A DNA stretch of 27,638 nt, taken from positions 1 to 27,638 of IMG/VR virus record IMGVR_UViG_3300032238_000485; one strand, 5' to 3'. This DNA comes from a virus. How positions within the stretch are numbered: position 1 is the stretch's first letter; each line of letters opens with the position of its first letter. Below, piece after piece: positions 2,723 through 27,292 of this stretch. The translations under genes were made by a program, and so were the position numbers. The notes beneath the pieces are model-generated. The model ran no database searches, had not been told where the DNA came from, and was given only the letters and a program-made list of their open reading frames with translations.

Positions 2723-3641
2723 TGAAGAATTCAATTACGATGATGAAACCCAATACGACGAAAGTTCGTATGAAACAGAGGACTACTCAGATGATTCTGA
2801 TGGTTCCGATTATGAGTTTACCGAGAACACTCTTGTAGAACTACCAGACCCAAACGAGATAGAAGATGCGTTAAACAACCCGTCCTTGGCGGAGCTATAT
2901 GAGGCTCTACCTAAGTCTCTACACGGTCTAGTTGAGCCGATCATTACTGAGTGGCAGCAAGGAATTGACCGAGAGTTTGAGTCAATTGCTCCGTACCGTA
3001 GATTTATGGATGCAGGCATTGACCCAGATATCATTGGTGCATCTCTAGAACTTGCTCAGCAGATTTCAACAAACCCTAAAGCTATCTATGACGAACTAGC
3101 GGAACGCTATGGTTGGAGACAGGCTGAGGAAATGATGAAGCAGGCTGTAGACGTATCTAATACCGTTAAGGCTGTTACCGAAGATGTTGACTTCTTTGGT
3201 GATGCAGATACCGAAAAAGATCCTGCTGATGCAGAACTAGCCGCACTTAGAGCTGAAATTGAAGCCATGCGTAATGAGCGTGAGATGGAGCGTGAAGCTG
3301 CAACTGAAGCTAATTACGAGTATGAGATTGGAACTTCTATGGAGGTTCTAGCTGAAGAGTATGGTGACTTTGACCAAGAAGCTGTTCTACGTAGAGCAAT
3401 GATTCTGGCAGACGAATATCCTGAAGCAGAGATTCCGCAGCTTATCGGTGCTGCATTTGAGCAGTACAATGGTGAACTTGACCGCATGAGAGCCCAGGTT
3501 GGAGCTCAAAGAAAAGCCCCTAGGGTCGCAGGCGGATACGGTAACAGTGGACTCCCGGCACCTGAACCTGTGGTTTACAAAACCAAGGAAGATAGAATTG
3601 CCGCTATTGAGGCCATTGCAAAGCAGTTCCTAGACAATTAG
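2715..3641 (+). CDS. Scaffolding protein
   Basis: A 308-residue, strongly acidic protein between portal and capsid genes. Residues 1-45 are dominated by Asp, Glu, Tyr and Ser; the middle (about 165-200) is a Glu/Ala/Arg-rich predicted coiled coil; the C-terminal region contains basic patches (RKAPR near 270 and KTKEDR near 290), as expected for capsid-binding ends of scaffolds. Scaffolds guide capsid shell assembly inside the procapsid and then leave. The start is embedded in the end of the portal gene (ATGGCTAG), implying translational coupling. Assignment rests on composition, size and synteny rather than a sequence motif. Confidence 0.82.
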   Translation: MASEEFNYDDETQYDESSYETEDYSDDSDGSDYEFTENTLVELPDPNEIEDALNNPSLAELYEALPKSLHGLVEPIITEWQQGIDREFESIAPYRRFMDAGIDPDIIGASLELAQQISTNPKAIYDELAERYGWRQAEEMMKQAVDVSNTVKAVTEDVDFFGDADTEKDPADAELAALRAEIEAMRNEREMEREAATEANYEYEIGTSMEVLAEEYGDFDQEAVLRRAMILADEYPEAEIPQLIGAAFEQYNGELDRMRAQVGAQRKAPRVAGGYGNSGLPAPEPVVYKTKEDRIAAIEAIAKQFLDN

Positions 3642-3954: not shown

Positions 3955-5274
3955 ATGGCCGATGGCTCAAATCTTACGATTGCCAATACAATCCTAAAGA
4001 CTGTATATGGCGACATCAATGAACAAATCAACAACGCTACTCCAGCACTTGATGGAATCAAATCTTCTGCCCGCAACATCACCCAGGTTGGTGGTTTGGG
4101 CATTAAGTTCGTTGCACACACAGGCCGTAACACTGGTCTAGGTGCACGTGGAGAAGATGAACTTCTACCAGACGCTGGACAGCAGCAATACCAGTCAGGT
4201 ACAGCAAGCCTAAAGAGCTTCTACGGTACCGTACGACTAACCGGTCAGGTAATGGCTCAGGCTAGTGCAAACTACCAGACATTTGCTGACGTAACATCAG
4301 AGGAAATCGAGCGCATCCGCGACGACATCGCTAAGGACCAGAACCGTCAGGTTTTCGGTGACGGAACCGGTATCATCGCAACAGTAGCAACCACTACTGG
4401 TGCTCCAACTTCGTACACCACATCATCTACATTGACTGTAGACGACGCAAAGTACATCCAGTTGGGTATGCGTGTTGACCTCGTTGTCTCAAAGATCCAC
4501 CCAACTAACCTAACCGTAAACGGTACAGCAGGTCAGTACATTGCGCCAGTAGCAGGACAGGCATACGCCACTGTTACTAACGTAAACAAGGCTACCAAGG
4601 TTGTAACCCTTGACAAGACTTTCACCTTGTCATCTGGTCAGGTTACTGCTGGTGTATCTATCGTTCGCTCAAACACCACCGCTTCCGGTATTCTAAACAA
4701 CTACGGAAAAGAGTGGACTGGTTTCGGCGCAATGATCGATGACAGCACCTCTCTCCACGGAATTGACCCTTCAACTGTTCCTTCATGGAAGGCTGTAGTT
4801 AAGGACATTTCTACTGGATCTGCACCAAACAAGGTTATGACCCAGGTAACTGAGACAGACATGATTTCTGTTGTAACCCAGATTGCAGCTGAAGGTGACA
4901 AGCCTGATGTTATCTGGTGTGACCACGGAACTTGGAACGGATACTGGAAGACCCTTCAGGACCGTCGTCGTTTCGTAAACAAGGTTGACCTTGATGGTGG
5001 TAACCGTGGACTTGGTTTCGTAACCGAGTTTGGTGACCTACCTCTAAAGGCTGACTTCGATGCTCCAGCAAACAAGATGTTCTTTGTTAACTCAAAGAAG
5101 ATCAACCTAAACACTTCACGTGGTTGGGAATGGATTGACGAAGATGGCTCAAAGTGGAAGCAGATTCCATTTAAGGACGCTTTCGTTGCCTACCTACGCA
5201 GCTACTCAGAACTAAGCACCTACCGTCGTAACACACACGGTTTGCTTAAGGGTATCCTGCCTGTAGCTAACTAA
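3955..5274 (+). CDS. Major capsid protein
   Basis: A 439-residue protein following the scaffold gene, expected to build the icosahedral shell with an HK97-type fold. The first 135 residues contain an N-arm and a GTVRLTGQVMAQA-type segment typical of coat proteins. Residues about 141-245 are rich in Thr, Val, Ser and Gly and look like a beta insertion domain, perhaps surface-exposed. The C-terminal part contains the alpha/beta core (VIWCDHGTWNGYWKTLQDRRRFV near 320-342). A strong AGGAG lies 6 nt before the ATG. Arg is mostly CGT/CGC by eye, unlike the AGA-rich giant gene downstream, consistent with selection for high expression. The gene has its own promoter and is followed by a hairpin, so it can form a separate transcription unit. 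Confidence 0.92.
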   Translation: MADGSNLTIANTILKTVYGDINEQINNATPALDGIKSSARNITQVGGLGIKFVAHTGRNTGLGARGEDELLPDAGQQQYQSGTASLKSFYGTVRLTGQVMAQASANYQTFADVTSEEIERIRDDIAKDQNRQVFGDGTGIIATVATTTGAPTSYTTSSTLTVDDAKYIQLGMRVDLVVSKIHPTNLTVNGTAGQYIAPVAGQAYATVTNVNKATKVVTLDKTFTLSSGQVTAGVSIVRSNTTASGILNNYGKEWTGFGAMIDDSTSLHGIDPSTVPSWKAVVKDISTGSAPNKVMTQVTETDMISVVTQIAAEGDKPDVIWCDHGTWNGYWKTLQDRRRFVNKVDLDGGNRGLGFVTEFGDLPLKADFDAPANKMFFVNSKKINLNTSRGWEWIDEDGSKWKQIPFKDAFVAYLRSYSELSTYRRNTHGLLKGILPVAN

Positions 5275-5335: not shown

Positions 5336-5803
5336 ATGGATTTATCAGGTGCACATATTCTAGGTACTGGAATTACGGATTTCAATGAACTAGATCGTTT
5401 AAAAGATGTTCCCGAGTATGCTCACAGATTGGCTAGGGTTTTAGCTGACTATGACCCTAATCTTTACATTCGTAGAGTACCTGAAAGACATCCACAGTTC
5501 AATCCTGAAAGACCATTTGCCGTTATGTACGGTAGCAGTGCTGGTGGAGAAAGCTACATTGTTCAAAACTATCCTGCATACGCACTTGACGAACGTATTA
5601 TGGCTGACATTATCAGCGCAGATGTGACTAAAGACGGTGGCTCTGTTGAGGACATCATTGCTTTAAACGCAGCACACGAATTCATGAAAATAAAGCAACG
5701 CCAGGAAGAAGACGCGGCACGCCGAGAGATGGCTCAAGATCTAGTCAAATTAGGTATGTCAAAGAACTACGCTAAGCACAACGGAAAGTTGATTTTTGAA
5801 TAA
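5336..5803 (+). CDS. Hypothetical head/connector-region protein
   Basis: A 155-residue protein with GGGAG four nt before the ATG. No family is recognised. The N-terminal half is mixed alpha/beta (HRLARVLADYDPNLYIRRVPERHP near 30-55, then an aromatic PFAVMYGSSAGG segment), and the C-terminal third is a charged helix (KIKQRQEEDAARREMAQDL near 120-140). The position between capsid and adaptor genes suggests a virion component such as a connector or decoration protein. The stop overlaps the adaptor start (TAATG). Confidence 0.7.
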   Translation: MDLSGAHILGTGITDFNELDRLKDVPEYAHRLARVLADYDPNLYIRRVPERHPQFNPERPFAVMYGSSAGGESYIVQNYPAYALDERIMADIISADVTKDGGSVEDIIALNAAHEFMKIKQRQEEDAARREMAQDLVKLGMSKNYAKHNGKLIFE

Positions 5804-6462
5804 TGCCTAAAGAAACGTACACCCGCACAGGGCAAGAAGTGGCCACCGAAGTAACTAGAATCTTTGGTGACGATTCCCTTATTGAGATAACCAATGCAGA
5901 CCTATTACGCTGGATTAACATGGCTCAGCGTGAAATTGCTTCCGCCAACAAGACTATTAAATCATCCGCAACTAGAGACATTGTTGCCAACCAGACCCTA
6001 TACATAATCCCTAGCAACATTCCTATCTTTCAGATTCAAGCACTATTTGTAAACGGTTTACCAGTTAAGCCGGTATCGTTCCAAATGGCACAGGAAATGA
6101 TTCAAAGCGATGACCCTAGCCTGAAGTACATTGGACAGCCAAAGATTTGGTATGAATGGGATGGGGATATCTATATCCATCCAGCACCAGAAAAGGACAT
6201 CGTAGACGGCCTAGTTATCTACTATATCCAGCAACCTGACGACATTGCGCTACTTGCGGACACACTACAAGTTCCTGACCGTTTCTACAACCAGATTGTA
6301 GATTACGTACTAGGGCAGGCATACCGCTTGGATGAAAACTGGCAAGCAACTCAATACCAGGATGCTCGTTTCCGTGATTCTATGAACCGTATTGTTGGTC
6401 AAGAAGACATTATCGATCAGCAGTACTACCCATCGAAGACAGTATTGTCGGAGGATGAATAA
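5803..6462 (+). CDS. Head-to-tail adaptor protein (gp11-like)
   Basis: A 219-residue protein expected to form the ring below the portal. It has the usual adaptor plan: an N-terminal helix-turn-helix pair (VATEVTRIFGDD, then LLRWINMAQREIASAN) and a beta segment with LYIIPSNIPIFQIQALFVNG and IYIHPAPE motifs, followed by LVIYYIQQPDDI and two terminal helices (DRFYNQIVDYVLGQAYRL). This resembles phage adaptor proteins equivalent to T7 gp11 or P22 gp4 in position and layout. Start and stop are both TAATG overlaps with neighbours. Confidence 0.82.
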   Translation: MPKETYTRTGQEVATEVTRIFGDDSLIEITNADLLRWINMAQREIASANKTIKSSATRDIVANQTLYIIPSNIPIFQIQALFVNGLPVKPVSFQMAQEMIQSDDPSLKYIGQPKIWYEWDGDIYIHPAPEKDIVDGLVIYYIQQPDDIALLADTLQVPDRFYNQIVDYVLGQAYRLDENWQATQYQDARFRDSMNRIVGQEDIIDQQYYPSKTVLSEDE

Positions 6463-6764
6463 TGGCTAGTTCAGCTTGGCAAAGATCTGCAGGTAAAAAC
6501 CCTAACGGTGGATTAAATGAGACCGGGAGAAGAGCTTACGAAGCTTCACATCCAGGTTCTGATCTAAAGCCACCTGTTAAGTCAGGTGTTAATCCACGCA
6601 GGGCGTCGTTCCTTGCACGTATGGGTAACATGCCTGGGCCTGAATACAAGAACGGTAAGCCTACTCGACTACTTAAATCCCTACAAGTTTGGGGTGCATC
6701 ATCTAAAGCAGACGCTAAAGCAAAAGCTGCTGCACTATCTAAGGCATTGAAAGCTGGTAAATAG
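6462..6764 (+). CDS. Small basic DUF6321/DUF6496-like protein
   Basis: A 100-residue basic protein. The pattern W-x-R-S-A-G-K-N-P-N-G-G-L-N, then GRRAYE, PRRASFLARMGNMPGP and KNGKPTRLLKSLQVWG matches the small phage family I know as DUF6321/6496-like, common near structural genes of environmental phages; its biochemical role is not established. The C-terminus is an Ala/Lys helix. The gene is coupled on both sides, by TAATG upstream and TAGTG downstream. Confidence 0.72.
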   Translation: MASSAWQRSAGKNPNGGLNETGRRAYEASHPGSDLKPPVKSGVNPRRASFLARMGNMPGPEYKNGKPTRLLKSLQVWGASSKADAKAKAAALSKALKAGK

Positions 6765-8416
6765 TGTCTAGAGATGGAATTATTATTGACAACTTCCAGG
6801 GTGGTATTAATAACGTTGCTGACCCTTCGCTGATTGCAACCAATGAAGTAGCTAAGGCTACTAATGTTGTCCTATCAAGCACAGGAAAGTTTGTTAGTAG
6901 ACCTCCATTTGATGTTGTAGCCACACATCCAGAAAGCTTTGTCGGGCAGACACAGAACCTTCTTGGTTACTGGCGTGATGAAGAGGGTAAAACCTATATT
7001 GTTATTTCGTTTGATAGCTCAACTTCCCCTGAAGAATGGGTATCCGGTAGCACATGGATTTGCCGTCTTGATACCTACGATTGGACTCAAGTTTGGGGTT
7101 ATCCAGCACAGGATATGACAACCTATTCCAACAGACTTTATCTAGTCAATCCATTGCATAACGGTAGATACTGGTCTAAGGAGAGCGGTGGTTATGCTGC
7201 AACAGATCTTCCTGCTGTTTCGGGTAGTTTGGGCCTACCCCCTGCTGCAAACGTGCATTATTCTAAGGGTCGTATCTATGTTTCAAGTAGATTAAATGGC
7301 GAAAAGTCATTCCTTAGATATAGCAATATCACTAGCGGTACACTAGGTACTAGCATTAACCAATTTCCTGTAGATAACTACATCAGCATCAATGATGGTG
7401 ACGGAGAACTTCTAGTTAAAATTGTAGAAGGAAATGGCGAACTATTCCTGTTCCGCTCCAACTCTACGTGGAGACTGGGGTTCAGTGCATCCGCAGAACC
7501 TACTGATGGTGTGTTAACTCAACTGTCTTCTACGATAGGTGTAGATAACGTAAACAGTGTGGTTGACGCAGGAAACTTCTTTGCAGTATTGCATGCCGGT
7601 GTCTTGTACCAATTTGCTGGATATGGATTTTATCCACTAAACGATTACACTAAAATGAGATTCCAGACACCAAGTACAAATGACACTGGATATACCTTTA
7701 CTACTAAACAAACCACAGCTGTATCCGTGCTGGGCAAATACATTCTTGTTTATTTCTATGGAAGTATGTATGTCTATGATTCAGACTTTAGGATTTGGAC
7801 AGAGTTTATTACATACACTAGAGCAGTTCATATCCTAGAAGCGCCTAGAGGAACATTCTTGGCATCAAACCAAGTTGTCACTGGCTACGGAATTCATGAT
7901 GATCTTACGGGTATCCCGGGTCAAACAAATGGATTGATTAAATTTGCATTAGAGTATCCAGAAGCCGGAGCTCCAATAGAAGAGATTAAGTGTGTAATTC
8001 AGACTAGAGCATACGATATTGGTGAACCCGCTAGATTTAAGCGACTATTTGGTTGGGAAGTAGTGGCCATGGTTGTTAACAGCCTTAAGGGTTCTATTAC
8101 CCCTATCGATAAACTTCAATCATCCACAATAACCTGGAATACTTGGGTTGCTCAAGGTAAAACCTGGGCTATTCTTGAAACCGAAGGAACATTGTGGAGG
8201 TCGCTACAGCCTACGATTTCAGCATTTGTGGGTGGACTACAGTCTACATTCCCAGTACCGCAGGTTATAAAAATCGGCGGAAAACGTACGTTTAAACGAG
8301 CATATTTCACTGTGGAATTCTCAAACGATGGAAGGGCTTCAACATCCCCTTCTAGACTAGATGGACTTATTCTGTACATGTTGGCAGGAAGAAAGATGAT
8401 AGGTCAGGCACAATGA
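6764..8416 (+). CDS. Beta-rich tail nozzle/stabilisation protein (gp12-like)
   Basis: A 550-residue protein that starts with GTG 6764 inside the upstream stop (TAGTG). The N-terminus (IDNFQGGINNVADPSLIATNEVAKATNV) is the NFxGGxN...DP...A.NV pattern seen in podovirus tail nozzle/stabilisation proteins. The body is a repeating beta pattern with blades such as LLGYWRDEEGKTYIVISF, RLYLVNPLHNGRYW, ELFLFRSNSTWRLGF, FFAVLHAGVLYQFAG and KYILVYFYGSMYVYDSDFRIWTEF, suggesting a propeller. It would sit below the adaptor ring and form the short tail tube, like T7 gp12. Exact homology cannot be tested here. Confidence 0.78.
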   Translation: MSRDGIIIDNFQGGINNVADPSLIATNEVAKATNVVLSSTGKFVSRPPFDVVATHPESFVGQTQNLLGYWRDEEGKTYIVISFDSSTSPEEWVSGSTWICRLDTYDWTQVWGYPAQDMTTYSNRLYLVNPLHNGRYWSKESGGYAATDLPAVSGSLGLPPAANVHYSKGRIYVSSRLNGEKSFLRYSNITSGTLGTSINQFPVDNYISINDGDGELLVKIVEGNGELFLFRSNSTWRLGFSASAEPTDGVLTQLSSTIGVDNVNSVVDAGNFFAVLHAGVLYQFAGYGFYPLNDYTKMRFQTPSTNDTGYTFTTKQTTAVSVLGKYILVYFYGSMYVYDSDFRIWTEFITYTRAVHILEAPRGTFLASNQVVTGYGIHDDLTGIPGQTNGLIKFALEYPEAGAPIEEIKCVIQTRAYDIGEPARFKRLFGWEVVAMVVNSLKGSITPIDKLQSSTITWNTWVAQGKTWAILETEGTLWRSLQPTISAFVGGLQSTFPVPQVIKIGGKRTFKRAYFTVEFSNDGRASTSPSRLDGLILYMLAGRKMIGQAQ

Positions 8417-8637
8417 TTAAAAACCCTGGTGGATCTGGATTTAACAAGTACGCGGCAGGGGCTAAGCGTTATGGTATTGGTGTTCTAAGCGGGCCAAACA
8501 CAGGAATGTCCCTAGATAAGACTGGTTATGCTGAGCGTTCAGCTAGGCAACGTGCAAAGAACTCAGCCATGCTAAAATGGATTAAGGGGAAGAGCGCTTC
8601 CCGTTACTTCGGTAAACCAACGATAGGTAAAATGTAA
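8413..8637 (+). CDS. Small basic protein
   Basis: A 74-residue protein rich in Lys, Arg, Gly and Ser (predicted pI high), overlapping the upstream stop by 4 nt (ATGA). Segments AERSARQRAKNSAMLKWIKGKSASRYFGK look like a short amphipathic basic helix. No family is recognised. Its place among tail and ejection genes suggests a minor virion or DNA-associated component. Confidence 0.65.
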   Translation: MIKNPGGSGFNKYAAGAKRYGIGVLSGPNTGMSLDKTGYAERSARQRAKNSAMLKWIKGKSASRYFGKPTIGKM

Positions 8638-9227
8638 TGCCGTATAAAAAGACACCTGCCGTCGACAGTGCTATGTCAGATAGATGGTCTAAACTAGCTA
8701 CCAAAGATGTAGTAGGCAAGGCAGCCGGATCTCCTACCCCCGCCCCAGCTGCTCCAAAGACTAATACAGGAGACAAGCTTGCTAAAGCTGTTGGCACTAC
8801 CCCTACCAGTCTTACACAGAAACTACAGCCTGGGTTAACTGATCAGCTAGCTATTAACAACTTAGAAACTCAGGGTAGAGTTGCGGACGCAATGAGGCTA
8901 TACCAAAACGAGGCAGCAAAACAGCAACTTCAGAACTCCCTAGCAACCATCAACCGTTCAGCTATCCAGCAGTATGAAGGTGTTGCCAATGATTACGCTG
9001 CTAGAGGTATGGTTAGAAGCGGTGGATATATGCGGGCAAATGATAAGGCATTGGCTACAACTAATGCACAGAAGATTGATGCTGAGAGTGCTGTAAGAGA
9101 CTTTATAGCCCAGAACCAGCTTGAAGGTGTTGCTCAGACCGGTGCTAAGCAGGCCAACCTACAGGATATTCTAATGAGACTTTTAACTCAATTTAATGCA
9201 AATAATGTGAATCAGTTGGTAATATAA
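8637..9227 (+). CDS. Helical internal virion protein candidate (gp14-like position)
   Basis: A 196-residue protein coupled upstream and downstream by TAATG. The N-terminal 60 residues are Pro/Ala/Thr-rich and flexible and begin MPYKKTP. From residue 60 on it is a long Gln/Ala/Asn-rich helix with the segment IQQYEGVANDYAARGMVRSGGYMRANDKAL around 104-133. Small, helical, Ala/Gln-rich proteins directly after the nozzle gene correspond in position to T7 gp14, an ejected inner-core protein. The role is inferred from composition and synteny. Confidence 0.68.
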   Translation: MPYKKTPAVDSAMSDRWSKLATKDVVGKAAGSPTPAPAAPKTNTGDKLAKAVGTTPTSLTQKLQPGLTDQLAINNLETQGRVADAMRLYQNEAAKQQLQNSLATINRSAIQQYEGVANDYAARGMVRSGGYMRANDKALATTNAQKIDAESAVRDFIAQNQLEGVAQTGAKQANLQDILMRLLTQFNANNVNQLVI

Positions 9228-10228
9228 TGGCAGATCAGAATCCTCAATCCCCTTTAACTGGTCAGCTAAGTGACCCAAACCTTGATCCAGCAATTAATGA
9301 GACACAAGGAATTATCGACAAATATTCTTACGTAACTGGTGGGCCAAACCAGTCGCTAATCAATGCTCTTACTGAACAGTCAAAGCAGAAGGTTCAGCAA
9401 TACAAGCAGAACCGTGCTGACGCTTCAAACATGTATGGACAATTGACTCAAACCGTAGACCAAGGAATTAACGTTGTTCAGCAGGGATACAACCAGGCTA
9501 TTCAGGAATCTTCACAAAATGCTTTAGGTGCTACATCTGCATTGGGTAACCAATTACAGCAACAGGTTGCCCAGCGACAGGCTGCGGCTAACGAACTGGG
9601 TATTGGAAGACAAGCAGCTCCAGTTAACTACGAGTCTGACGCTAGAATGAATGACGCCATGGCTGGTATCTTGGCCTCAAACCAAAATTGGAATAACTTA
9701 TTGAGAGCTCAGCAGCAAGGTGCTAGACAGCAGGGTGTAGATACAAAGACAGCATTAGGTCAATCAAAGAATCAGACTATGCTAGCCCTACAACAAGCTC
9801 TACAGGCCGGCCAAGGCAGTATCGCAAACCAGATTGCTGCTGAAAGAGGTAAGGCTGGAACCGTAGAAATGTCACCTATGGGTAAGATTTTGCTTGGTAG
9901 AATGACCACTAAGCCAAACACTAACGTAGTAAACATGAATAGTGCCCTAGCTGCATTTGAAAATGATCCTATGTTAGCTGCTGTTGGATTAGGTAAACCT
10001 TCTCAATTCCAAGACCCAGAGAATCCACAGAATGTTGGCCCTGTAGCTTGGCAGAACTACTATATGGGTGAGCTTCAAAAGGCATACAGCAATGACGCAT
10101 ACAAGGCTGGAACGCCTATAGGTGCTCAATTGCAGACATTTGCCAAGATATATGGCTTACCTGCACCGTATATTCAGAACGCTCAGGGTGTCATGCCTAA
10201 TTCGTCTTACTCCCCAGTCGACTATTAA
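9227..10228 (+). CDS. Gln-rich internal virion protein candidate (gp15-like position)
   Basis: A 333-residue protein with a high Gln, Asn and Ala content, mostly predicted helix and coiled coil between residues 40 and 205 (for example QQQVAQRQAAANELGIGRQAA). The C-terminal 100 residues are more globular, with WQNYYMGELQKAYSNDAY near 275 and a Tyr/Pro-rich end. It starts in a TAATG overlap with the preceding gene and is the last gene before the giant ejection-protein candidate. Like that neighbour it is probably packaged in the head or vertex and ejected, but no specific motif proves this. Confidence 0.68.
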   Translation: MADQNPQSPLTGQLSDPNLDPAINETQGIIDKYSYVTGGPNQSLINALTEQSKQKVQQYKQNRADASNMYGQLTQTVDQGINVVQQGYNQAIQESSQNALGATSALGNQLQQQVAQRQAAANELGIGRQAAPVNYESDARMNDAMAGILASNQNWNNLLRAQQQGARQQGVDTKTALGQSKNQTMLALQQALQAGQGSIANQIAAERGKAGTVEMSPMGKILLGRMTTKPNTNVVNMNSALAAFENDPMLAAVGLGKPSQFQDPENPQNVGPVAWQNYYMGELQKAYSNDAYKAGTPIGAQLQTFAKIYGLPAPYIQNAQGVMPNSSYSPVDY

Positions 10229-10229
10229 T

Positions 10230-10238
10230 TGCTATAAT
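10230..10238 (+). promoter_or_regulatory. Extended -10 promoter before the giant gene
   Basis: TGCTATAAT lies just after the upstream stop codon: TG-N followed by a perfect TATAAT (10233-10238). The start is expected near 10245, giving a leader of about 14 nt that contains AAAGAAAGG (10245-10253) before ATG 10259. TAATTGC (10226-10232) and GCAATTA (10253-10259) form a 7-bp inverted repeat enclosing promoter and ribosome site. There is no -35. Confidence 0.5.
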
Positions 10239-10258
10239 TGTCTTAAAGAAAGGCAATT

Positions 10259-13200
10259 ATGTCTCCAACTAATAAGGAAACTGCTGACCTCATAAGAAGA
10301 GTTAGGGGTGCTTCAAGTATTCCACCTCAGGCCGCTATGCCTAATGGCGGTACCCGCAGTGGTTTCACTGACTTTGGACACGTTGCCCCATACGACCCTA
10401 CTGTTCTACAAAAAGCTACACAAGAGGGTCAAGACCTTTCATCCAAGGTAGTAGAAGGTGGCATGAATGCCTTTGGTTACACTATCCGAGTTATCTCTGG
10501 TTTACAGCGTGGTGTGACTAACCTAGCCGCCGGTGTACTACCTCACGCGAACAACATCTGGGATACCTACAAAGATGGTTTCCAGTTTGAAGACGTCGGC
10601 AAAACTGCCAAAGAAGCTTACAACGCTGCCACTCAGGGAGCATGGGGTGCAGCTAAAGGTATTGCTGTATCCGGTGTACCTATCGCAGAAGAGCTAATCA
10701 AAAAGTTTGATGATAGACCGATTTATGAATGGGGTGCAGACCTATTCAAATCTGACGAATTTAGTCGTGCAATGAATAACCTTAAAGATAGCCCATTAAA
10801 TGCGATAAATGAGGCTACTCCGTATAGGGCAATACAAAAAGTATTTGGCAGTGACTTCGGATCTTTTGAAGATTTATCAAAATTAAACAGTCCTGAGTAT
10901 GCTGATGAAAAAGTCTTTGGTGGTATATCTATTCCATTTACCCCTATCCAGAACTTTATGCCACTATCTAGAGCTGAAACCTATGGATTAGGGTGGGATA
11001 TAACTACCGACCCTACAACATATGCGACTATGGGTCTTGCTGGTGCCATAAAAGGAGGCGCTAGAGGCATTAGCAGCGTCGCTAAGTACCAGAAGTCAGG
11101 TAAGGCAGCAAACTTCGCTGATATAGCCCCACAGGCCCTTCCTAGGCCATATTATGGAGTGGCTAAGGGTGGTAAAAAGGTAGCTATCCCTAACCCGACA
11201 TACACGGTTATGAACACTTCTCCGATAACCTACATCGTCAAGGAAATGGGTCGTGGATTTACTGAGGCACATAAGGCTAGATTGCACTATGCGGCATCGA
11301 AAAAGGCTGCATTGCAGGCTGTGCAGGAATATCAAACTGCCCTAGGTGAAGGACTACTTGGCAAAGAAGGTATGACACCACAATACGTGGAAGAATTTGC
11401 CGCAGCAACTAGAGATAGAGTGCTTCAGAACAAGAAAATGTCCCTAATTGAACAGGGCATTACAGATCCAATGGAAATTGAAAAGCTTGTTATGGAGACA
11501 ACTAAGGCACTGGAAGACCATGCTGCTGAAGTTGCTGCAAAAGCACCTGAAATCATTGCTGCTCTAAGCAGTAAGGAAGCTGCTGCAAACATCCAGCGCA
11601 TCGCGGAAGAAAACGGAATCACCCCGATAGAAGCTAGCGTAATAGAAATCGCAAACGCAACATCAAGAGGTCTAAGAAGAACTAGCCTGGCTATTCCACG
11701 TACAAAAAACCCTAAGATTAACGCTGAGCAATCACTCGAATTTAGCCGAGCAATGAAGGCACTGTCAGAACCAGACAACATTAATCCTGATTTTGGTGGC
11801 GGATGGGATGTCCTTGCTAAAACAGCATCCACAGAAACACTTAGACACGTATTCGATTCAATGGCAATGCCTATTGGATATAGAGAAAAATGGGCTGCAG
11901 CTGCCGCACAAAGTGCCGCCGAGAGAATGTCTGACGCCGGAGACCTTGTTCGACAAATGTATGGTTTGTCTCTTAGCCCTATGGCCGCTAAGAGCAGAAA
12001 GCCTGCTACTGATTTAGTGCAAGTTGACCAGCGAGTAGCCAAGGGTATTACTAGAGCAACTTGGGTTGTCAAGAACCCTAAAGAACTTAACCAGATTATG
12101 AAGATGCTTAGGCAGATTAAATCTACAAGAGAAGGTGCTGGAAGCAAAACCACACTACCAAGATCGATTCCTTCTGCAAAAGAGATTATTGCCGCACCGC
12201 AGTTCTTCTTAGATAACCTGACCAAAAACTACTACGAAGATGTTGTTAGAAAAACACTAAAGAACAGCAGACCGTGGGATGAACTGTATGTAACAGAAAA
12301 AGCTACATACGCTGAGCAGATCATTGCTGACCCTTCACTAATTCCGGGTTCAGTATTCCAGAAGTCATTACCTTCACCAACCCTAATGAGCGTAAGAATC
12401 GAATACATGACCGAACGTTCATTGGGGCAACAGACCGCAGAATACACTGCTGTGGAAAAGTGGAAGTCAATGGGATACAACCCGGTTACATTGCGGACAC
12501 AGCACCCTAAGCTTTACACGCTTGTATTTGACAGGGCAGATAAGGCTCCAGGCAAACAGGTAACTCTATCTGAAGTAATTAGACTTACCAACGTAGCCGC
12601 CGGTAGACTACAAGACCCTGTACTAAACAAGATTCTGTACAAGCTTGGAGTTAACCGTGCATCTCTTCACACACCTAATGGCCTATTGGATATGCCCCAG
12701 GTTGAAGAGATCCTACACAACGCACACACTGCTGTTATGGCTAAAGAACGTAGTCAGTTCCTTGCAAGACTTCAGGTTGAGAATACTGGAGAACTAGGTG
12801 CAGATGCTCTAGTAGACCCAACTCTACTGAACATAGATATGGAAGCATTGCTAGGACAACACATTGCTGACCTACAGGCTAAGGGTAGATTAGTTACATC
12901 AGATGAAATCAAACTTGCCGTAGAGAAACTAGCCGACATTCAGGAAGCTCAAATTGCAGCAAAAGATAAGCTAGCAAAATATGGATTTGATCCACTAGGT
13001 GCAGGTAGCCCTGCATTTGGTATGCTAACTAAATTTGATTCACCTGTTGCAAAGAAGTCTTCTACAACAGAAGCAAGAGCCCTAAAAGAACTTAAGGCAA
13101 TTGTTGAGTCAGTAAAAGACGTAAACATTCCACCAGAGCAGGCATACAACAACATGGTTGCAAAACTATCCGAGATTATGGATAGACCTAACGTATCTGC

Positions 13201-16200
13201 CTTGATTAAAAATGGGATTAAACAGATTATTGGTACTGGTGCTAAGGCTCGTAAAACACCTATAAGCCCAGACATGCTAAAGAGCTATTTTAGTCTAATC
13301 GGCAATATCATCCGTCAAGTGGAAGATAAAGTTAAGGTTGGCACTACAGCTGGATACGATGTTGTCTTCTCTAAAAAAGGTGGAGAATATGACCAGCAGG
13401 CAATTGACACATTCTTAGAGCAAGCGTACAGGGCAAGTAAGTCACAGGACTCTCTTGATGGCGGATACTTTGCTGACCAGATAGAGATGCTTGCTAAAAA
13501 GAAGCTAGGTAAGTCAAAGGACTACAAGCCTTTGCGTGAACAGTCACCTGAAGAAGTCAGAAAGACTCTACAGAACATAGGTCCATGGAACGGTGAAGGC
13601 ATGTCTGCTAGTTTGCTACAGACCATCATTCGTTTTACTGAAAGACAAACCGGTAGAGTAAAATCTAAACCTCTAACTGAACTTGAAAAGCAGGATATTC
13701 AAAGAAGCGAAGATGCCCTTTATGAAGGCATTATGGCGGCTTTGATTAAAGAAGAAGAGAAGATCTATCTCGCTGAACGGAAAGCACTGAAGCCTGTCAC
13801 TGAAGACACCGGCGAAGGTAGAATGATTAGAGTCGCTCCCGAGAACCTTCAGAACGAAGAAGAAGTTGCCGTTTACGAAAGTATTGTTAAGCCAAGAACT
13901 GTTCGAATTGATTCCAACGGTGAAATCCTAGGACTGCTCAATAAGTTTAAAGATGCCGTAAACGCGGCTATAGGCCAGGGTTACACTATTAAAGTTCCTG
14001 CGCTAGAAATAGTTGATAAAACAAATAAAGAAAAACTAATCAAGGTTGGATTAAACGACTTAAAGCCTGGAGATGAACTAAAGTACAAGTACTTCCTTGA
14101 TCTTTCACTTAACATACAGAAGTCGATGAAAGATGGCGGAAAAGTCAGCGAAGAGATTCTTCGTATTTGGCAAATCACTAAAGAACTTTCACAAACCAGC
14201 ATAGCTAGAGCAGAATCTAGAGCCGGTGGAGCAATCGTGCGAATGAGAGCAAGAAAAGCTGCGGAAGAAATATTCCCTAAATTTGCCTCTGCCGCAAGAA
14301 TGACTGAAGCTGCTGCAAAGATTACAGACAAAGTAAAAGCTGGAGTTCACTGGAGAGCGAGAGCATGGCTTGGAACATTCGTTGTCCAAGCTGATTCAGG
14401 TATTCGCGACATCGAGAAAAACGACCCTATTCTAGCGAGATTGTCTAAGGTAACTAGACCTGAAGACGGGCCACTAATTGAAAAGGAAAAGGCGCTTTTC
14501 ATAAAGATAGTCAAGGACTTGAGAGATAAATATCTCAAAGAAGGTTACAAGGCTAGCAAGGAAGACCTGACTGAGAAGTCTATCCAAGAAGTCATCGCAA
14601 TGGAAAACCCTATCGACTTCCTACGCAAGATTACAACCATGATTGTAAAAGACGATAAAGAAGCTGAGGCGTGGGGTATTGCAATGGGGCACCTGTCAAC
14701 CATGACTGTACAGGGCAAGCCTGGTCGCTACGATAGCTTTGCTGAATTGATTAAAACCTACAAGTCTGCCAGCAGGGAACAGAAGCCTGGAGACATCAGC
14801 ATTGTTACCGGTAAGCAAATCCCTACGGATAAAGAAGTGCTGCAAGTTCTTTCTGGTTTTGATGAAACTATTAGCGAAGCTGCGATGAAACTTCTTGCTC
14901 AGCCGGAGATTAGAAGAAACACAGTTCTAATGCTTCTAAAGAAACTTGACAAGACAGTAGAAAAAGCCGACCTAGAGGACGCACAGACCGGCGAACTCAT
15001 GGCAAGAATACATGCTCCTGGAGCAGATCAGATTCAAGCGGTTGCAGACAACCTACCTGATCCAAAGATAATGCAGCAAGAACTTGTAAACCAGTTTGCA
15101 CTCGAGCGTGTGAAACTGCACAACGAAGGTTTAGGTTGGCTAGAAATCCTGGTCGCTGAAGCTGTTGGAAAGGAAAACAAGCAATTCATCCTTGACCGTT
15201 TTGAGACACACACCACAGCAGAGACAGATCTTCTAGGAAGAACTATCGATGTCAATGAACCAAAGTTTACACCTGACCGCAGCACTATGAAGCGTTCATA
15301 TGAAACCACAAGCGTGCTTCTCACTGGATGGAAGAAGATTGTTGGTGGACTAAGCGAAATGGCTACCGCCAAGGGATTGGCATACGGTACTGAAGAGCGT
15401 ATGCAGTTTATGACTGAAATGGCTCTAAGAGCTTTGAGACTAAGAGACATGCACCTAAATATCCTAGGCATCTTCCCGTCAAGCTCATGGAGACTAAAGC
15501 GCAAAGAGAACATCATTGTTAAGCTAAATGCTTTTACTCCAGAAGAAGCTGCTTTGAAAGCAAAGCCAGCATATTTGAGTGATGCAGATATCCTAGATAT
15601 TTTCCCTCAGAACTTGGTTGCAAACATGCTATTTGTTGGGCCAATGGCTTCTATGCCAATCACTGCATTTGCACCAGCCGCTTCATTGCTAGTTACCGCA
15701 ATGGATACACTCAAGGCAGGTAGTTACTTTAGTAAAGAAGAGTTGAACATCCTTACAACTAAAATGGCTGAACTTATGCGCAATGATGCAAGCTTTGCAT
15801 CTCCAATCGCAAAGGGTTCTGACATAAGTCACTATGGATTAAATGCAGCTGAATTTGAGCAAAACATTAGAACCATTGTTGCATGGATGGTTGAACCAGA
15901 GAACGCATTTAAGCTATGGGACCAGCACGTTCTGAACGCAGCATATGCTTCAAAGATTTACAAGTACAAGTCAGGAAAGGTCACTGCACCAATTATTGAC
16001 GGTTTGTTAAAGATGTTCTCTAACTCATTTGCGTCTGTTGGAAACAAGATTGAAGCTGTACTTAATGCCAGCGAAGAGCTTAGAAAACTAACTGGCCGTG
16101 GTGAACTGACTGAAGAAGTACTATTCCAGGCTGAACTAGACCTTAATGCTGTACTTGCTGCACACATCGATAGAGACAGTTTTACTATCGCACAAGAAGC

Positions 16201-18793
16201 ACTCAGAATTGAAGCTGCAAATGCGTCCCCTGAAGGTCAAGCTATTCTTGCATCACAGCGTAAGGCGGCTAATGGTAACCCTATGCAGCAGATTAATGCT
16301 ATTAGACTTCAAACAGCCCAGAGCAGAGATCCTCTCTACATGAACCTAGCCGGTATGAGAAACCTAAATGAAGCCGTAAAGGCACCTCAAATAGGAAAAG
16401 ATGACCCATTCGATGTATTCCACGATCATTTGACTGCTGAAGTTCGTACTAACCTAACATTGAAATTTGGTGAAAAGTTTGGTCGTCTATTCTTTGATTA
16501 CGGCATGGAAAAACTTCGCCCACTATACGGACCACACGAAAGAAACCGTATTATCGATGTTAGCTTGTTTGAACAAATTGGCGCAAACATGAAACAAAGA
16601 TGGTCTCAAGAATTCCCTGACAGAAATATTTTAGGTGAAGCATGGCAGATAATCCAGAGAGTCCCGGCAGAAGTTAGAGACATCTCTTTTGAGGCTAGAG
16701 CCGCGCTAAGAGATGCTGCTGAAGAAGTAAGAAGAACCGGTAAGCAAGTCCTTACGCCAGATCAGTATGCTGAATTGATTAAAGAATCTAAGAAAATCGA
16801 TGAATTCCTTTCCTTAGACGATGAAGCATTAAACAGAGCAGTGTCCGAGCTTTGGAGTTTAGGTGGAAGAATCTTCTCTGGTGGAGAAAAGTCAATGCTA
16901 AAACGTTATGGATTAACACCATCATGGTTAAACAGAAACCTTTATGAAGTCGGTGGAGGAAACGTTAGGGCAGCAATTGACCCAGAAACAATGACCTATG
17001 TACGAGCTAAGGACGGTTACGCATTTAGAGATGCAAAGTCAATGGCATATATTTGGCAGGAATGGGAAATCGATAACCCTATTGAAATGATTGTCACTAT
17101 GAATGCCGCTATCCAGCGTGCACAGTTAATCCCTACAATAGCCGATGATGCTGTAAGAAAATACGGTATTCAAAAGTCATTTTACAAAAATGCAGCGGAA
17201 GCTAAAAAAGATGGCCTTGTTGCAATTAAAACAATAGAAAAGCCTCAGCGTGGTAGAGAACTGGTCTATTTCATGGATACGGAGAACTACTATTATCCTA
17301 TTGAAGTTGCACAGGAACTAAAAACATTTAGCGAATTCTTGGGTGAATTGAAATACATCCAGGGTGGCGGTATTGCTGAAAAGGTTCTGAGAAAGTTCAG
17401 TGAGCTCACAAACGTGGCTAAATCACTGATGACAATTCTAAGACCTGGAAACTATGTCCAGAACGGTCAGGGTGGTGTTTGGGTAAATGCTTTTGCTGGT
17501 ACTGTTTCACCGATGGCATACGGTAGAGCAATAAAGACTATGCAAGCCAGCGGAAGAAAAGCTGACTTTATTGACCTTAATGCACTTGAAGCCGAAATGG
17601 GTAAATATGAAGCGATGAAGGCTAAAGAAGGTTTTACTATTAAATCAGTTAACGATCCTAGAAAAACAGATTCTATGCTCGTCACTATTGCTGGCAAAGC
17701 ATACCCATTTAGTTATTCAGATCTAGAAAAGCTTGCAACTAAACATGGTATTAGAGTCCCTGTTGCCCAAAACCGTGACATGGATTTAGTCCAAGATGTT
17801 GCGGCTGCATCAAGTATTAGAGAAGCCAGTAAAGAACTTAGAAGAAAGATTGCTGGCAGATACAACAAGATTGTTCTTGGTGCCGGTAAAATTGCCGCAC
17901 AGCGTGATGAAGCCCTACGTTTAACATTGTTCCTAGATGAACTAGGTAAGAACAACTGGAAGTCGCTAGAAGCTGGTGCAGTAGAAGCTATGAAGAAAGT
18001 TGATCGTTATCACCCACAGGTGCAAGACCTATCAACTCCACTACAAAAAGCTAGACCATTCTTGATGTTTATTACTTGGAAACAAAAGATGATGGCTACA
18101 GTTCTAGGTGACTTGCTACAAAGACCTGGGCCAATGCTTAACTCAATTAGAGTAACTCAGGCAAGTAACAATTCTCAAGAGCAATCAAGGTCTAATACAT
18201 TTGGAAACTTGACTCCAGGTAGTGTTGCTTTGCCGGAAGACTACAAGTACAATCTTGACCCTATTGCAGTAGATCCTGTAACTGGAATGATGACACGCTA
18301 CTCGCTAGCAAACCCAGTGACAGACCTATATGGAAGCAATGGATTGTTGACCGGTATAAACTTCAACACCTATGAACCATTTACTGACCAGCTAATTCAG
18401 ATGACTCAAGAAACAGCAAACAAGCTGTTGAACCAGAGCTACCCATTTGTTCTGAAGGCTCTGTGGGAATATCCTCAAGGTAGAACCACTAGCGGACAGC
18501 AACTAGGGGCAAATGGATTTAATGCATTCCAGGATGCGCCACCGCTACTAAAAGACATTATGGTTTCAACCGGTTTAAACCCTGCCTATCAAACGATAGC
18601 TGCAATGTGGCCATGGTTAGCATCAGGTAAATCAGCTCAAATGTCAGGTGACCAGAGATTTAATGAAGTATGGAGAGCCTGGACTAACTTTGCAACCGGT
18701 GCCAAGCTAACACCGCTAGACACTATTCCAAATAGAAATAGGGGTATGCAGGAGCTTCTAGATAAGCTCAAAGCACTGCGAGAAATGCCCTAG
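10259..18793 (+). CDS. Giant internal virion/ejection protein candidate (2844 aa)
   Basis: One uninterrupted 2844-residue frame fills almost a third of the window. It follows nozzle and helical protein genes, where T7-like phages encode ejected core proteins such as gp16, though it is more than twice that length. Visible regions are: a Gly/Ala-rich hydrophobic stretch near residues 250-265 after DITTDPTTYATMG; long Lys/Glu/Ala-rich helical regions about 340-460 and 850-1600; a hydrophobic segment near 1785-1815 (NMLFVGPMASMPITAFAPAASLLV) that could enter a membrane; a KSLMTILRPGNYVQNG segment near 2390-2405, resembling the conserved motif of large polyvalent phage proteins; and PFLMFITWKQKMMATVLGDL near 2600. 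I see no convincing transglycosylase or polymerase active site. Arg codons are mainly AGA. Its stop overlaps a - strand stop. Confidence 0.8.
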   Translation: MSPTNKETADLIRRVRGASSIPPQAAMPNGGTRSGFTDFGHVAPYDPTVLQKATQEGQDLSSKVVEGGMNAFGYTIRVISGLQRGVTNLAAGVLPHANNIWDTYKDGFQFEDVGKTAKEAYNAATQGAWGAAKGIAVSGVPIAEELIKKFDDRPIYEWGADLFKSDEFSRAMNNLKDSPLNAINEATPYRAIQKVFGSDFGSFEDLSKLNSPEYADEKVFGGISIPFTPIQNFMPLSRAETYGLGWDITTDPTTYATMGLAGAIKGGARGISSVAKYQKSGKAANFADIAPQALPRPYYGVAKGGKKVAIPNPTYTVMNTSPITYIVKEMGRGFTEAHKARLHYAASKKAALQAVQEYQTALGEGLLGKEGMTPQYVEEFAAATRDRVLQNKKMSLIEQGITDPMEIEKLVMETTKALEDHAAEVAAKAPEIIAALSSKEAAANIQRIAEENGITPIEASVIEIANATSRGLRRTSLAIPRTKNPKINAEQSLEFSRAMKALSEPDNINPDFGGGWDVLAKTASTETLRHVFDSMAMPIGYREKWAAAAAQSAAERMSDAGDLVRQMYGLSLSPMAAKSRKPATDLVQVDQRVAKGITRATWVVKNPKELNQIMKMLRQIKSTREGAGSKTTLPRSIPSAKEIIAAPQFFLDNLTKNYYEDVVRKTLKNSRPWDELYVTEKATYAEQIIADPSLIPGSVFQKSLPSPTLMSVRIEYMTERSLGQQTAEYTAVEKWKSMGYNPVTLRTQHPKLYTLVFDRADKAPGKQVTLSEVIRLTNVAAGRLQDPVLNKILYKLGVNRASLHTPNGLLDMPQVEEILHNAHTAVMAKERSQFLARLQVENTGELGADALVDPTLLNIDMEALLGQHIADLQAKGRLVTSDEIKLAVEKLADIQEAQIAAKDKLAKYGFDPLGAGSPAFGMLTKFDSPVAKKSSTTEARALKELKAIVESVKDVNIPPEQAYNNMVAKLSEIMDRPNVSALIKNGIKQIIGTGAKARKTPISPDMLKSYFSLIGNIIRQVEDKVKVGTTAGYDVVFSKKGGEYDQQAIDTFLEQAYRASKSQDSLDGGYFADQIEMLAKKKLGKSKDYKPLREQSPEEVRKTLQNIGPWNGEGMSASLLQTIIRFTERQTGRVKSKPLTELEKQDIQRSEDALYEGIMAALIKEEEKIYLAERKALKPVTEDTGEGRMIRVAPENLQNEEEVAVYESIVKPRTVRIDSNGEILGLLNKFKDAVNAAIGQGYTIKVPALEIVDKTNKEKLIKVGLNDLKPGDELKYKYFLDLSLNIQKSMKDGGKVSEEILRIWQITKELSQTSIARAESRAGGAIVRMRARKAAEEIFPKFASAARMTEAAAKITDKVKAGVHWRARAWLGTFVVQADSGIRDIEKNDPILARLSKVTRPEDGPLIEKEKALFIKIVKDLRDKYLKEGYKASKEDLTEKSIQEVIAMENPIDFLRKITTMIVKDDKEAEAWGIAMGHLSTMTVQGKPGRYDSFAELIKTYKSASREQKPGDISIVTGKQIPTDKEVLQVLSGFDETISEAAMKLLAQPEIRRNTVLMLLKKLDKTVEKADLEDAQTGELMARIHAPGADQIQAVADNLPDPKIMQQELVNQFALERVKLHNEGLGWLEILVAEAVGKENKQFILDRFETHTTAETDLLGRTIDVNEPKFTPDRSTMKRSYETTSVLLTGWKKIVGGLSEMATAKGLAYGTEERMQFMTEMALRALRLRDMHLNILGIFPSSSWRLKRKENIIVKLNAFTPEEAALKAKPAYLSDADILDIFPQNLVANMLFVGPMASMPITAFAPAASLLVTAMDTLKAGSYFSKEELNILTTKMAELMRNDASFASPIAKGSDISHYGLNAAEFEQNIRTIVAWMVEPENAFKLWDQHVLNAAYASKIYKYKSGKVTAPIIDGLLKMFSNSFASVGNKIEAVLNASEELRKLTGRGELTEEVLFQAELDLNAVLAAHIDRDSFTIAQEALRIEAANASPEGQAILASQRKAANGNPMQQINAIRLQTAQSRDPLYMNLAGMRNLNEAVKAPQIGKDDPFDVFHDHLTAEVRTNLTLKFGEKFGRLFFDYGMEKLRPLYGPHERNRIIDVSLFEQIGANMKQRWSQEFPDRNILGEAWQIIQRVPAEVRDISFEARAALRDAAEEVRRTGKQVLTPDQYAELIKESKKIDEFLSLDDEALNRAVSELWSLGGRIFSGGEKSMLKRYGLTPSWLNRNLYEVGGGNVRAAIDPETMTYVRAKDGYAFRDAKSMAYIWQEWEIDNPIEMIVTMNAAIQRAQLIPTIADDAVRKYGIQKSFYKNAAEAKKDGLVAIKTIEKPQRGRELVYFMDTENYYYPIEVAQELKTFSEFLGELKYIQGGGIAEKVLRKFSELTNVAKSLMTILRPGNYVQNGQGGVWVNAFAGTVSPMAYGRAIKTMQASGRKADFIDLNALEAEMGKYEAMKAKEGFTIKSVNDPRKTDSMLVTIAGKAYPFSYSDLEKLATKHGIRVPVAQNRDMDLVQDVAAASSIREASKELRRKIAGRYNKIVLGAGKIAAQRDEALRLTLFLDELGKNNWKSLEAGAVEAMKKVDRYHPQVQDLSTPLQKARPFLMFITWKQKMMATVLGDLLQRPGPMLNSIRVTQASNNSQEQSRSNTFGNLTPGSVALPEDYKYNLDPIAVDPVTGMMTRYSLANPVTDLYGSNGLLTGINFNTYEPFTDQLIQMTQETANKLLNQSYPFVLKALWEYPQGRTTSGQQLGANGFNAFQDAPPLLKDIMVSTGLNPAYQTIAAMWPWLASGKSAQMSGDQRFNEVWRAWTNFATGAKLTPLDTIPNRNRGMQELLDKLKALREMP

Positions 18794-22470: not shown

Positions 22471-23271
22471 TTATTTAACTCCGTATAGCGTCAGTGTGGC
22501 TGCAGCTGTAGAAGAAGTAATATCTACAGTCAGGCTATTAACTGCACCAGCAGACGCACAATAACCAGTCAATGCCAGTGATGGGCCTAAAGCACTGATA
22601 ACCTTACCGTTACCGCTCCTAGAGTAACCAGGAAGTTCAATAACATAAAGCGGAGTAGTTGAAGAAGCAGGGTTACCCAACAAAATGCTAGTTCCAGTAG
22701 TAGAAGTATCTGGGGTAGCAGTACCATAGATATTTCTAGTGTACGAATAAGTGCTAGCACCACTAATACCATTAAGCCTCAAAAAGAAACCAGAACCAGT
22801 AGGAGCGGTTCCTACAGAAGTAAAATCAATGTGCAAAACAAGTTTCTGATATCCGTAAGCGATGGAAGAAAAACTTACAGTCTGAGAACTGGCAGAAGTA
22901 GACAAAGACTGTTGATCTAGCTGAACATAACCTCTTTCACTCCAAGCAGCATATGGAGCTGTAAGGCTAGAAACAAGGACTTGGCCGGCAGCAGCAGGGG
23001 TAGCAATAAAAGTAGTAGTATCAGCCGCTGACTGGATTGGAATACGCTTAACAGCACCACCAACGATGTTCTGAGCTTTAGATACAGAACCACCAGTGCC
23101 AACAGTAACATTTAGGTTATTAATGTTAGAAGTGTGGTCAGCGAGAGTAGTGTTAGTGCTCGCGGCATGATCGTTAATAAGATCATAGTTGCTGTTGATA
23201 AGGTCAAGATCCACAACATCGTTGGCCTCCGGTTTCGCCAAATTTAATGGAGCATCTCCAGTAGTAGACAT
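22471..23271 (-). CDS. Tail fibre/appendage protein (receptor-binding candidate)
   Basis: A 266-residue protein. The N-terminus (LNLAKPEANDVVDLDLINSNYDLINDHA) resembles the virion-attachment start of many phage fibres, followed by a short repeat-rich helix (TTLADHTSNINNLN) and a joint region. From about residue 115 the sequence is Ser/Thr/Gly/Ala-rich beta structure, ending in VDITSSTAAATLTLYGVK, typical of trimeric receptor-binding tips. A strong GGAGG lies six nt before the ATG, which overlaps the upstream stop (TAATG). No chaperone or enzymatic motif is seen. The host receptor cannot be predicted. Confidence 0.75.
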   Translation of the reverse strand: MSTTGDAPLNLAKPEANDVVDLDLINSNYDLINDHAASTNTTLADHTSNINNLNVTVGTGGSVSKAQNIVGGAVKRIPIQSAADTTTFIATPAAAGQVLVSSLTAPYAAWSERGYVQLDQQSLSTSASSQTVSFSSIAYGYQKLVLHIDFTSVGTAPTGSGFFLRLNGISGASTYSYTRNIYGTATPDTSTTGTSILLGNPASSTTPLYVIELPGYSRSGNGKVISALGPSLALTGYCASAGAVNSLTVDITSSTAAATLTLYGVK

Positions 23272-23822
23272 TAATTTCCTCCATACATAGAATTTACAAG
23301 GTCTGCAGCAATTGTACCACCATAGTATTTACCGGCGTTGCGGTCAACATGCTGGGCAACTTTGCCAACAGTAGTTTTAGCGGGCTTTACGCCCTTAGCA
23401 GCAGGTTTAGCTGACTTAATTGCAGGTTTAATCATTTTAGTGATCTGCTGACCTTCTTTAACGCCTTTACCAATCGTCTTAACTGGTCTAGCAACGCGGC
23501 CAACATAAGGGATAAGACCAGCAATAGCATAAGGATCACCAGAGACAGCACCCTGAACATCAGGAAGTGCCAAAGAAGCAGCATCAGCTAAAGGATTCTT
23601 ATCGCTAATCAAACCATTAGAAATATCCTTATAGTACTGCTCATTCATCTGGTTGTTATTTAAACCCATAGAAGCACCAACACCATAACCCAAAGGTCTA
23701 GCCAAAATGTTAGCTGCACCACGAAGTGGTGGCAAAGCAGCCTGGTTAGCGGCATTCCAAGCACCCTGGAAGCCGTTACCGGCTTGCTGCATTAGGTATG
23801 CGAGAATCTGTTCAGGATTCAT
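23271..23822 (-). CDS. Basic hypothetical protein, possible virion component
   Basis: A 183-residue protein. Residues 1-60 are Gln/Asn/Ala/Gly-rich with QQAGNGFQGAWNAANQAALPPLRGAANILARPLGYGVGASMG; the middle is mildly hydrophobic (SLALPDVQGAVSGDPYAIAGLIPYVGRVARPVK); residues 125-160 are a Lys/Ala/Pro-rich basic run similar to histone-like tails (AIKSAKPAAKGVKPAKTT). No family is recognised. It lies between terminase small subunit and fibre genes, overlapping the former by 11 nt. Virion or DNA-associated roles are both possible. Confidence 0.62.
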   Translation of the reverse strand: MNPEQILAYLMQQAGNGFQGAWNAANQAALPPLRGAANILARPLGYGVGASMGLNNNQMNEQYYKDISNGLISDKNPLADAASLALPDVQGAVSGDPYAIAGLIPYVGRVARPVKTIGKGVKEGQQITKMIKPAIKSAKPAAKGVKPAKTTVGKVAQHVDRNAGKYYGGTIAADLVNSMYGGN

Positions 23823-25326: not shown

Positions 25327-25650
25327 TGATACGCATAAGAAAATATTAAAAATAAAAATAAGGCTAATTGATCACACATTCAAGTTCACGCGAGTACATA
25401 CGAGACACCAGCCAAATCCACGCTCTAACACAATAATAACACACAAGGCGATGATACGCACAGACAAAATGGTACCGAACCCGAGCAGGCATCGTTTTAG
25501 TGGCGCAGCAAATTCAGGGGGGTTCAACATGCGGCTTGCCCTTGTGGTTACTGGGAAGGGGTATGTTTGCGACACGCTGATTTGACCACGTTGCCCAATT
25601 TGCTAGGCTTGTGGTGTCGCTCAGCCTGCGTGCTGGGGCGCTCGGTATGT

Positions 25651-25667
25651 GCGTGGTGTGACCACGC
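25651..25667. repeat. 17-bp palindrome GCGTGGT-gtg-ACCACGC
   Basis: Two perfect 7-bp arms around GTG. The symmetry and spacing fit an operator for a dimeric regulator, or a small hairpin. It is inside the GC-rich part of the divergent region, and its right arm repeats the TGACCACG found 76 bp to the left. Confidence 0.7.
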
Positions 25668-25731
25668 GCTCCCACACCCGTGTGTGTGGTGAAGCAAGGG
25701 GCGGCCCTCGACTGGATTACCCATAGAGTGA

Positions 25732-25756
25732 TCATATGTAAATGGTTTACTTATGA
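25732..25756. repeat. 25-bp imperfect palindrome upstream of the orphan + strand gene
   Basis: TCATA-T-GTAAA (25732-25742) and TTTAC-T-TATGA (25746-25756) are inverted around TGG, with a single non-pairing T/T position. It lies about 65 nt before ATG 25821, where a promoter is expected, and suggests an operator bound by a dimer, most simply the divergent HTH regulator. A leader hairpin is the alternative. Confidence 0.7.
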
Positions 25757-25820
25757 CCCGCGCACATGTTCCAATTACAGGTTAGATGCGATCAACTACT
25801 TCGGAAAGGAAGTGGTACCC

Positions 25821-27167: not shown

Positions 27168-27236
27168 TCAGCTTGTCATCAGGTGGGTACGCCCAATAAA
27201 CGAGTAAGTCATACTTGAATTTACTATGCCTGAATA

Positions 27237-27263
27237 GGAAAGGTTGTACCGAGCCAACCTTCC
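27237..27263 (+). promoter_or_regulatory. Leader hairpin between the two rightward genes
   Basis: AAGGTTG (27240-27246) pairs with CAACCTT (27255-27261), and GG/CC extend the stem past a bulged A, around an 8-nt loop TACCGAGC. It lies in the 125-nt gap before the 77-residue gene and is not followed by T residues, so it is more likely a processing, stability or regulatory structure than a terminator. A CATACT (27210-27215) upstream could be a weak -10. Confidence 0.5.
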
Positions 27264-27292
27264 TGCACCACCCTAAATGAAAAGGAAAACAA

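Follow-up and report, generated by a model that had tools for sequence, protein, structure and literature searches.

A cysteine-free protein of 2844 residues that closes a T7-ordered structural module is a probable giant ejection protein of a probably short-tailed virus

We analyzed a stretch of 27,638 bases (hereafter the window), an IMG/VR virus contig in which a single open frame at 10259-18793 on the plus strand starts with ATG and runs through 2844 codons uninterrupted by stops. Its product, the giant, is encoded by the gene that ends a podovirus structural module, and the order of this module (portal, scaffold-like, capsid, gp11-like, nozzle-like, 196 aa, 333 aa, giant) corresponds to T7 genes 8-9-10-11-12-14-15-16. 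The features assigned are as follows.

635-2722, plus strand: P22-type portal protein, by family search
2715-3641, plus strand: scaffold-like protein, 308 aa, phrog_33339, function by position
3955-5274, plus strand: major capsid protein, phrog_14242, by family search
5803-6462, plus strand: tail adaptor or gp11-like protein, 219 aa, phrog_399, by family search
6764-8416, plus strand: nozzle-like protein (T7 gp12 position), 550 aa, phrog_33544, by family search
8637-9227, plus strand: candidate gp14-type ejection protein, 196 aa, no cysteine, by position and composition
9227-10228, plus strand: candidate gp15-type ejection protein, 333 aa, Gln/Ala-rich, no cysteine, by position and composition
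10259-18793, plus strand: putative giant gp16-type ejection protein, 2844 aa, no cysteine, by sequence and homologues
10436-11158, plus strand: conserved N-terminal block of the giant, residues 60-300, partly common to phages Jasmine and Shocker
10997-11014, plus strand: invariant D-x(3)-D-P motif (D247, D251, P252), by family alignment
16946-18538, plus strand: conserved C-terminal block, residues 2230-2760, the portion of the giant common to Jasmine, Shocker, and DS1
17897-18148, plus strand: residues 2547-2630, profile match to N4 gp50 3368-3449, by hhalign

Small genes also lie within the module, encoding 155 aa (between the capsid and gp11-like genes), 100 aa (between the gp11-like and nozzle-like genes), and 74 aa (after the nozzle-like gene). 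The 100 aa gene (6462-6764, plus strand, phrog_4689) has homologues upstream of the portal in three related loci (L006, L007, and L008) and, judged by these homologues, is a relocated gene. The scaffold-like protein gave a weak LPD22 match below the cut-off (E 0.0086). Downstream of the giant, the opposite strand carries three small genes, an NlpC/P60-type endolysin, two LysM proteins, a metallophosphoesterase, a fibre-like gene, and regulators. The product of the putative tail fibre-like gene (22471-23271, minus strand, 266 aa), which runs opposite to the module, has a conserved N-terminus (36-94 residues) and a remainder that varies in relatives. Adjoining it, a Gly/Ala-rich protein of 183 aa without cysteine (23271-23822, minus strand) recalls the N-terminal block of the giant in composition.

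A preliminary description of the locus had read the frame as about twice the length of T7 gp16, preceded by two precursor-like proteins and followed by no tail-fibre gene on its strand. These points held: 2844 aa is about 2.2 times gp16 (1318 aa), the 196 and 333 aa proteins are Ala/Gln-rich and cysteine-free, and the next large plus-strand gene begins at 25680, the fibre-like gene being on the minus strand. That next gene (25680-27167, 495 aa) is without family hits and its product is 28-32% identical to proteins on related contigs.

The 2844-codon frame is intact and conserved, with eight further full-length relatives of 2599-2766 aa at ∼25-32% identity and two more distant, mid-size relatives of about 2100 aa. 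With the giant as tblastn query, matches at 22-23% identity across its C-terminal sixth came from Arthrobacter phage Jasmine and its relatives and from Microbacterium phage Shocker. Shorter homologues (1743-1803 aa) are encoded by the actinobacterial phages Jasmine, Shocker, and DS1; those of DS1 (1783 aa) and ctEqG8 (1106 aa) were linked to the family via BLAST to Shocker, so that lengths in the group range from 1106 to 2844 aa. Environmental loci were collected by searches with the capsid protein (30 loci) and the portal (34 loci). A homologous giant was present in 15 of the 21 records searched that had been reached via the capsid gene; among the six records without a match, two contigs (loci L018 and L020) end ∼4 kb past the capsid gene. 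Viral contigs searched directly with the giant protein gave no match, and bacterial and archaeal genome contigs searched with the C-terminal alignment gave no relative.

The place of the giant gene in the module and its neighbours are kept in the full-length and mid-size relatives and in Jasmine, Shocker, and DS1, and the portal, capsid, gp11-like, and nozzle-like genes are homologous to their Jasmine and Shocker counterparts. Jasmine gene 29, Shocker gene 37, and the DS1 gene at 6593-11944 (phrog_36598) are true homologues of the giant, with the same place and gene order, both terminal blocks, and no cysteine, whereas the window protein is ∼1000 residues longer. Conservation in the family is strongest in the Gly-rich N-terminal block, which contains D247-x3-D251-P252, and in the C-terminal block; the family alignment shows no cluster of invariant catalytic-type residues in the middle of the protein. 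PHROG phrog_36598, of unknown function, matches nine of 14 family members, the window protein not among them. The giants form a family of their own, which in the records seen carries no annotation beyond hypothetical protein, and our literature search found no paper naming a Jasmine-type giant an ejection protein.

A similar portal occurs in 28 records. A host is named in 24 of these and is Arthrobacter, Microbacterium, Cellulosimicrobium, or Bacillus in all 24; the known hosts of relatives are Gram-positive. WhiB was found in eight of the 12 related environmental records searched, the window being one of the 12, and in Jasmine, DS1, and ctEqG8; it was absent from the window fragment, Shocker, Page, and N4, and was present in one of 14 control genomes (Corynebacterium). 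Jasmine is reported to have podovirus morphology with a 10 nm stub tail (PMC5513430). With a P22-type portal in the window and morphology known for the relative Jasmine only, the virus is probably short-tailed. Its host is probably an actinobacterium.

Cysteine depletion provided the strongest new evidence in support of an ejection protein. The giant, the 333 aa protein, and the 196 aa protein contain no cysteine at all. The frequency in nine other virion proteins of the window (9 cysteines in 2806 aa) predicts 9.1 cysteines for the giant, and that in all the window's other genes (29 in 5413 aa, once two doubtful overlapping frames at 25514-25735 and 27127-27636 had been dropped) predicts 15.2; the probability of zero is about 1e-4 and 2e-7, respectively. 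Nineteen giant-family sequences together hold one cysteine, a count that includes L109 and L111, fragments of genes also counted whole. The 14/15-type neighbour frames in nine relatives lack cysteine in 17 of 18 cases (five short overlapping frames left out), as do the three final genes in DS1 and ctEqG8 and, though their identity is less certain, in the Bacillus phage Page module. As a yardstick, 18 ejection proteins of T7, N4, P22, phiKMV, P-SSP7, and SP6 have 2 cysteines in 15,049 aa, and 40 other virion proteins of these six podophages, chosen by us from annotated records, have 116 in 19,132 aa. The giant carries the cysteine-free signature derived here from the 18 known ejection proteins. 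Since scaffolds (the 308 aa window protein and T7 gp9) and several small window proteins are also cysteine-free, the signature is supportive and no proof. For N4-like virion RNA polymerases (vRNAPs), the absence of cysteine is already in print, tied to passage through the tail or periplasm and viewed as something that tail passage may require (PMC3715699, PMC2784036); our literature search found no paper that extends such depletion to ejection proteins in general.

To obtain structural evidence, we used two models, covering residues 1-1200 and the C-terminal 1200 residues, with 1201-1644 outside both. The modelled parts are helical in make-up; the C-terminal model has a mean pLDDT of 61.2 and the N-terminal one is poorer (mean pLDDT 52.7). 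Foldseek of the model against the PDB gave no match at E 0.001, and sequence searches of the PDB, whether with the full or the C-terminal profile, yielded chance matches only. Against BFVD, the top match of the C-terminal model was a Jasmine-group giant (3e-11), followed by two unnamed proteins and LPD-domain giants near 1e-4. VIA-align rows for both models were mostly generic helix bundles; among the rows shown, N4 gp50 was the sole ejection protein, and T7 gp16 was not listed, which excludes nothing. The N4 row (row 38) aligned window residues 2377-2699 with gp50 3206-3500 (Z 4.9, rmsd 5.6, 186 residues aligned), a Z-score that sits among unrelated helical rows, most of which span a different generic helical stretch.

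This row prompted a profile test by hhalign. Residues 2547-2630 of the giant matched N4 gp50 3368-3449 with P 0.006-0.02, none of 500 column permutations scored as well, and the remaining seven tiled segments scored no higher than 17.3, against 26.5 for the matching one. The offset of the profile match is intermediate between those at either end of the structural match, a compatible register. Since the test comprised 36 segment-family comparisons, we would not rely on the profile match by itself. Taken together with the structural row, it suggests that the C-terminal block of the giant weakly but specifically resembles the extreme C-terminus of gp50, a region that is reportedly required for encapsidation (PMC5512222) and reported to inhibit transcription (PMC12633501). 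The C-termini of gp16 from T7, SP6, phiKMV, and P-SSP7 gave no profile match to the giant. We also compared the N4 C-terminus with LPD38 (P 0.038, with 3 of 60 permutations as good) and do not claim this as a match.

In our preferred reading, which we consider very probable, an actinobacterial podophage packs three proteins of 196, 333, and 2844 aa in its head, the giant being the largest, and these exit by way of the portal and stub tail either ahead of the DNA or together with it. The giant is the last and largest of a triad that follows tail adaptor and nozzle genes, and packaging and ejection are deduced from this gene order and from the cysteine signature. The ejection-protein assignment of the preliminary description is backed by gene order, the podovirus morphology of Jasmine, cysteine depletion, and the match to the gp50 C-terminus. 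The protein is very likely ejected and would work like gp16 or gp50 of podophage ejectosomes. None of the homology tests placed it in the T7 gp16 family, and it is almost certainly no vRNAP.

Docking, threading, and conduit formation would then proceed as follows. The C-terminal block may act as an encapsidation or docking module that holds the chain in the head. The chain would pass the portal and stub-tail channel unfolded and extended or as bead-like domains, and such a passage could account for its lack of cysteine. The 196 and 333 aa partners may assist in breaching the wall and membrane, the Gly-rich N-terminal block may seat the giant at the single host membrane, and the helical body would form or line the DNA path through both. 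The three hydrophobic segments previously proposed to build a trans-envelope conduit did not bear this out. Only residues 1786-1804 are notable (Kyte-Doolittle 19-mer mean 1.51); segments 2382-2422 and 2590-2625 reach just 0.46 and 0.88, and none of the three is consistently hydrophobic across the 13 family members compared. The maximal hydropathy of the giant is close to that of T7 gp16 (1.44) and below that of N4 gp50 (1.82), values with which membrane contact would be compatible.

A rather unlikely alternative, and the one that survives best, is a polyvalent injected effector, also packaged and ejected, in which the extra 1000 residues relative to Jasmine serve mainly enzymatic or host-takeover roles after entry rather than the DNA path. 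In the BFVD list, the LPD-domain giants (E 1e-4) and an ART-PolyVal protein (E 4e-4) rank fairly close after the Jasmine-group giant, an LPD38 giant occupies a comparable place in Page, and the variation in length within the group is as expected of cargo. Yet the giant has no significant Pfam or PHROG match, no enzyme family in Pfam or PHROGs matches more than one of 14 family members, and the enzyme hallmark motifs tested in the family are absent or unconserved. Family searches and the two weak models (pLDDT 61 and 53, without 1201-1644) gave no polymerase, lysozyme, or other catalytic domain, and Pfam, PHROG, and the models gave no set of two or more effector domains; the effector or catalytic domain suggested earlier was not seen in them, though one may be hidden. 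LPD38, expected in the window family from the Page protein, was rejected: its Pfam model is silent, matching 0 of 16 records other than Page, and the profile comparison is at chance (34 of 60 permutations score as well).

A tail tape-measure-like or other structural tail protein would likewise be a long helical protein in the structural module, and the BFVD list has a few tape measure proteins among its poorer matches (E 0.06 and worse), but the stub tail reported for Jasmine needs none and the window has a P22-type portal and gp11/nozzle-like genes, making this reading very improbable. Weakest is a virion RNA polymerase of N4 type, which we reject as having almost no chance of being right: the size is comparable, cysteine is absent, and the C-terminus matches weakly, but no conserved single-subunit or multi-subunit polymerase motif and no Pfam match were found, and in a profile test that covered 1201-1644 the best segment against the N4 polymerase domain (P 0.12) was not beyond background, so that the polymerase homology named earlier as grounds for refutation did not appear.

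Among known systems, the T7 gp14-gp15-gp16 ejectosome (Autographiviridae) shares the three-gene order after gp11/gp12-like genes, with the largest protein last, helical, and cysteine-free. In contrast to gp16, for which a range of 609-1337 aa is reported (PMC8954989), the giant has no detectable sequence homology and no lysozyme or transglycosylase signature, and a single-membrane host is likely. N4 gp50 (Schitoviridae) is likewise a cysteine-free giant and the largest of an ejection triad, whereas its RNA polymerase domain was not detected in the window giant and the matching isolates have Gram-positive hosts. We tentatively propose, while holding it less probable than its contrary, that the family is a polymerase-free counterpart of N4's giant, in which an ancient C-terminal encapsidation module loads very large cysteine-free chains, here a conduit or cargo of 1.1-2.8 thousand residues for single-membrane actinobacteria. 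If so, cysteine depletion would be a general marker of ejected phage proteins readable from sequence alone. The signature offers an inexpensive means of spotting ejected proteins without a recognisable homologue.

To our knowledge, protein ejection ahead of DNA is known for phages of two-membrane bacteria and hardly described for single-membrane hosts. For phi29-like phages, ejection proteins are reported missing in a 2022 review (PMC8954989). The present family would represent a Gram-positive-host lineage with a T7-like triad and a giant among the largest such proteins, and why one membrane and a thick wall need such an apparatus is directly testable in cultivable Arthrobacter phages. The LPD38 giants, namely that of Page and the LPD38-like gene of Pelagibacter phage HTVC010P, are likewise cysteine-free and lie in a podophage virion module, differing in the domain itself, which was not detected in the window family. 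Page_20 (L140 19786-24825) is a cysteine-free protein of 1679 aa with LPD38 near its C-terminus; given its comparable place, Gram-positive podophages may have gained giant ejection-type proteins more than once. In HTVC010P (L154 5560-8879), a protein is similar to the LPD38 region of Page, and several of its neighbours are separate cysteine-free genes.
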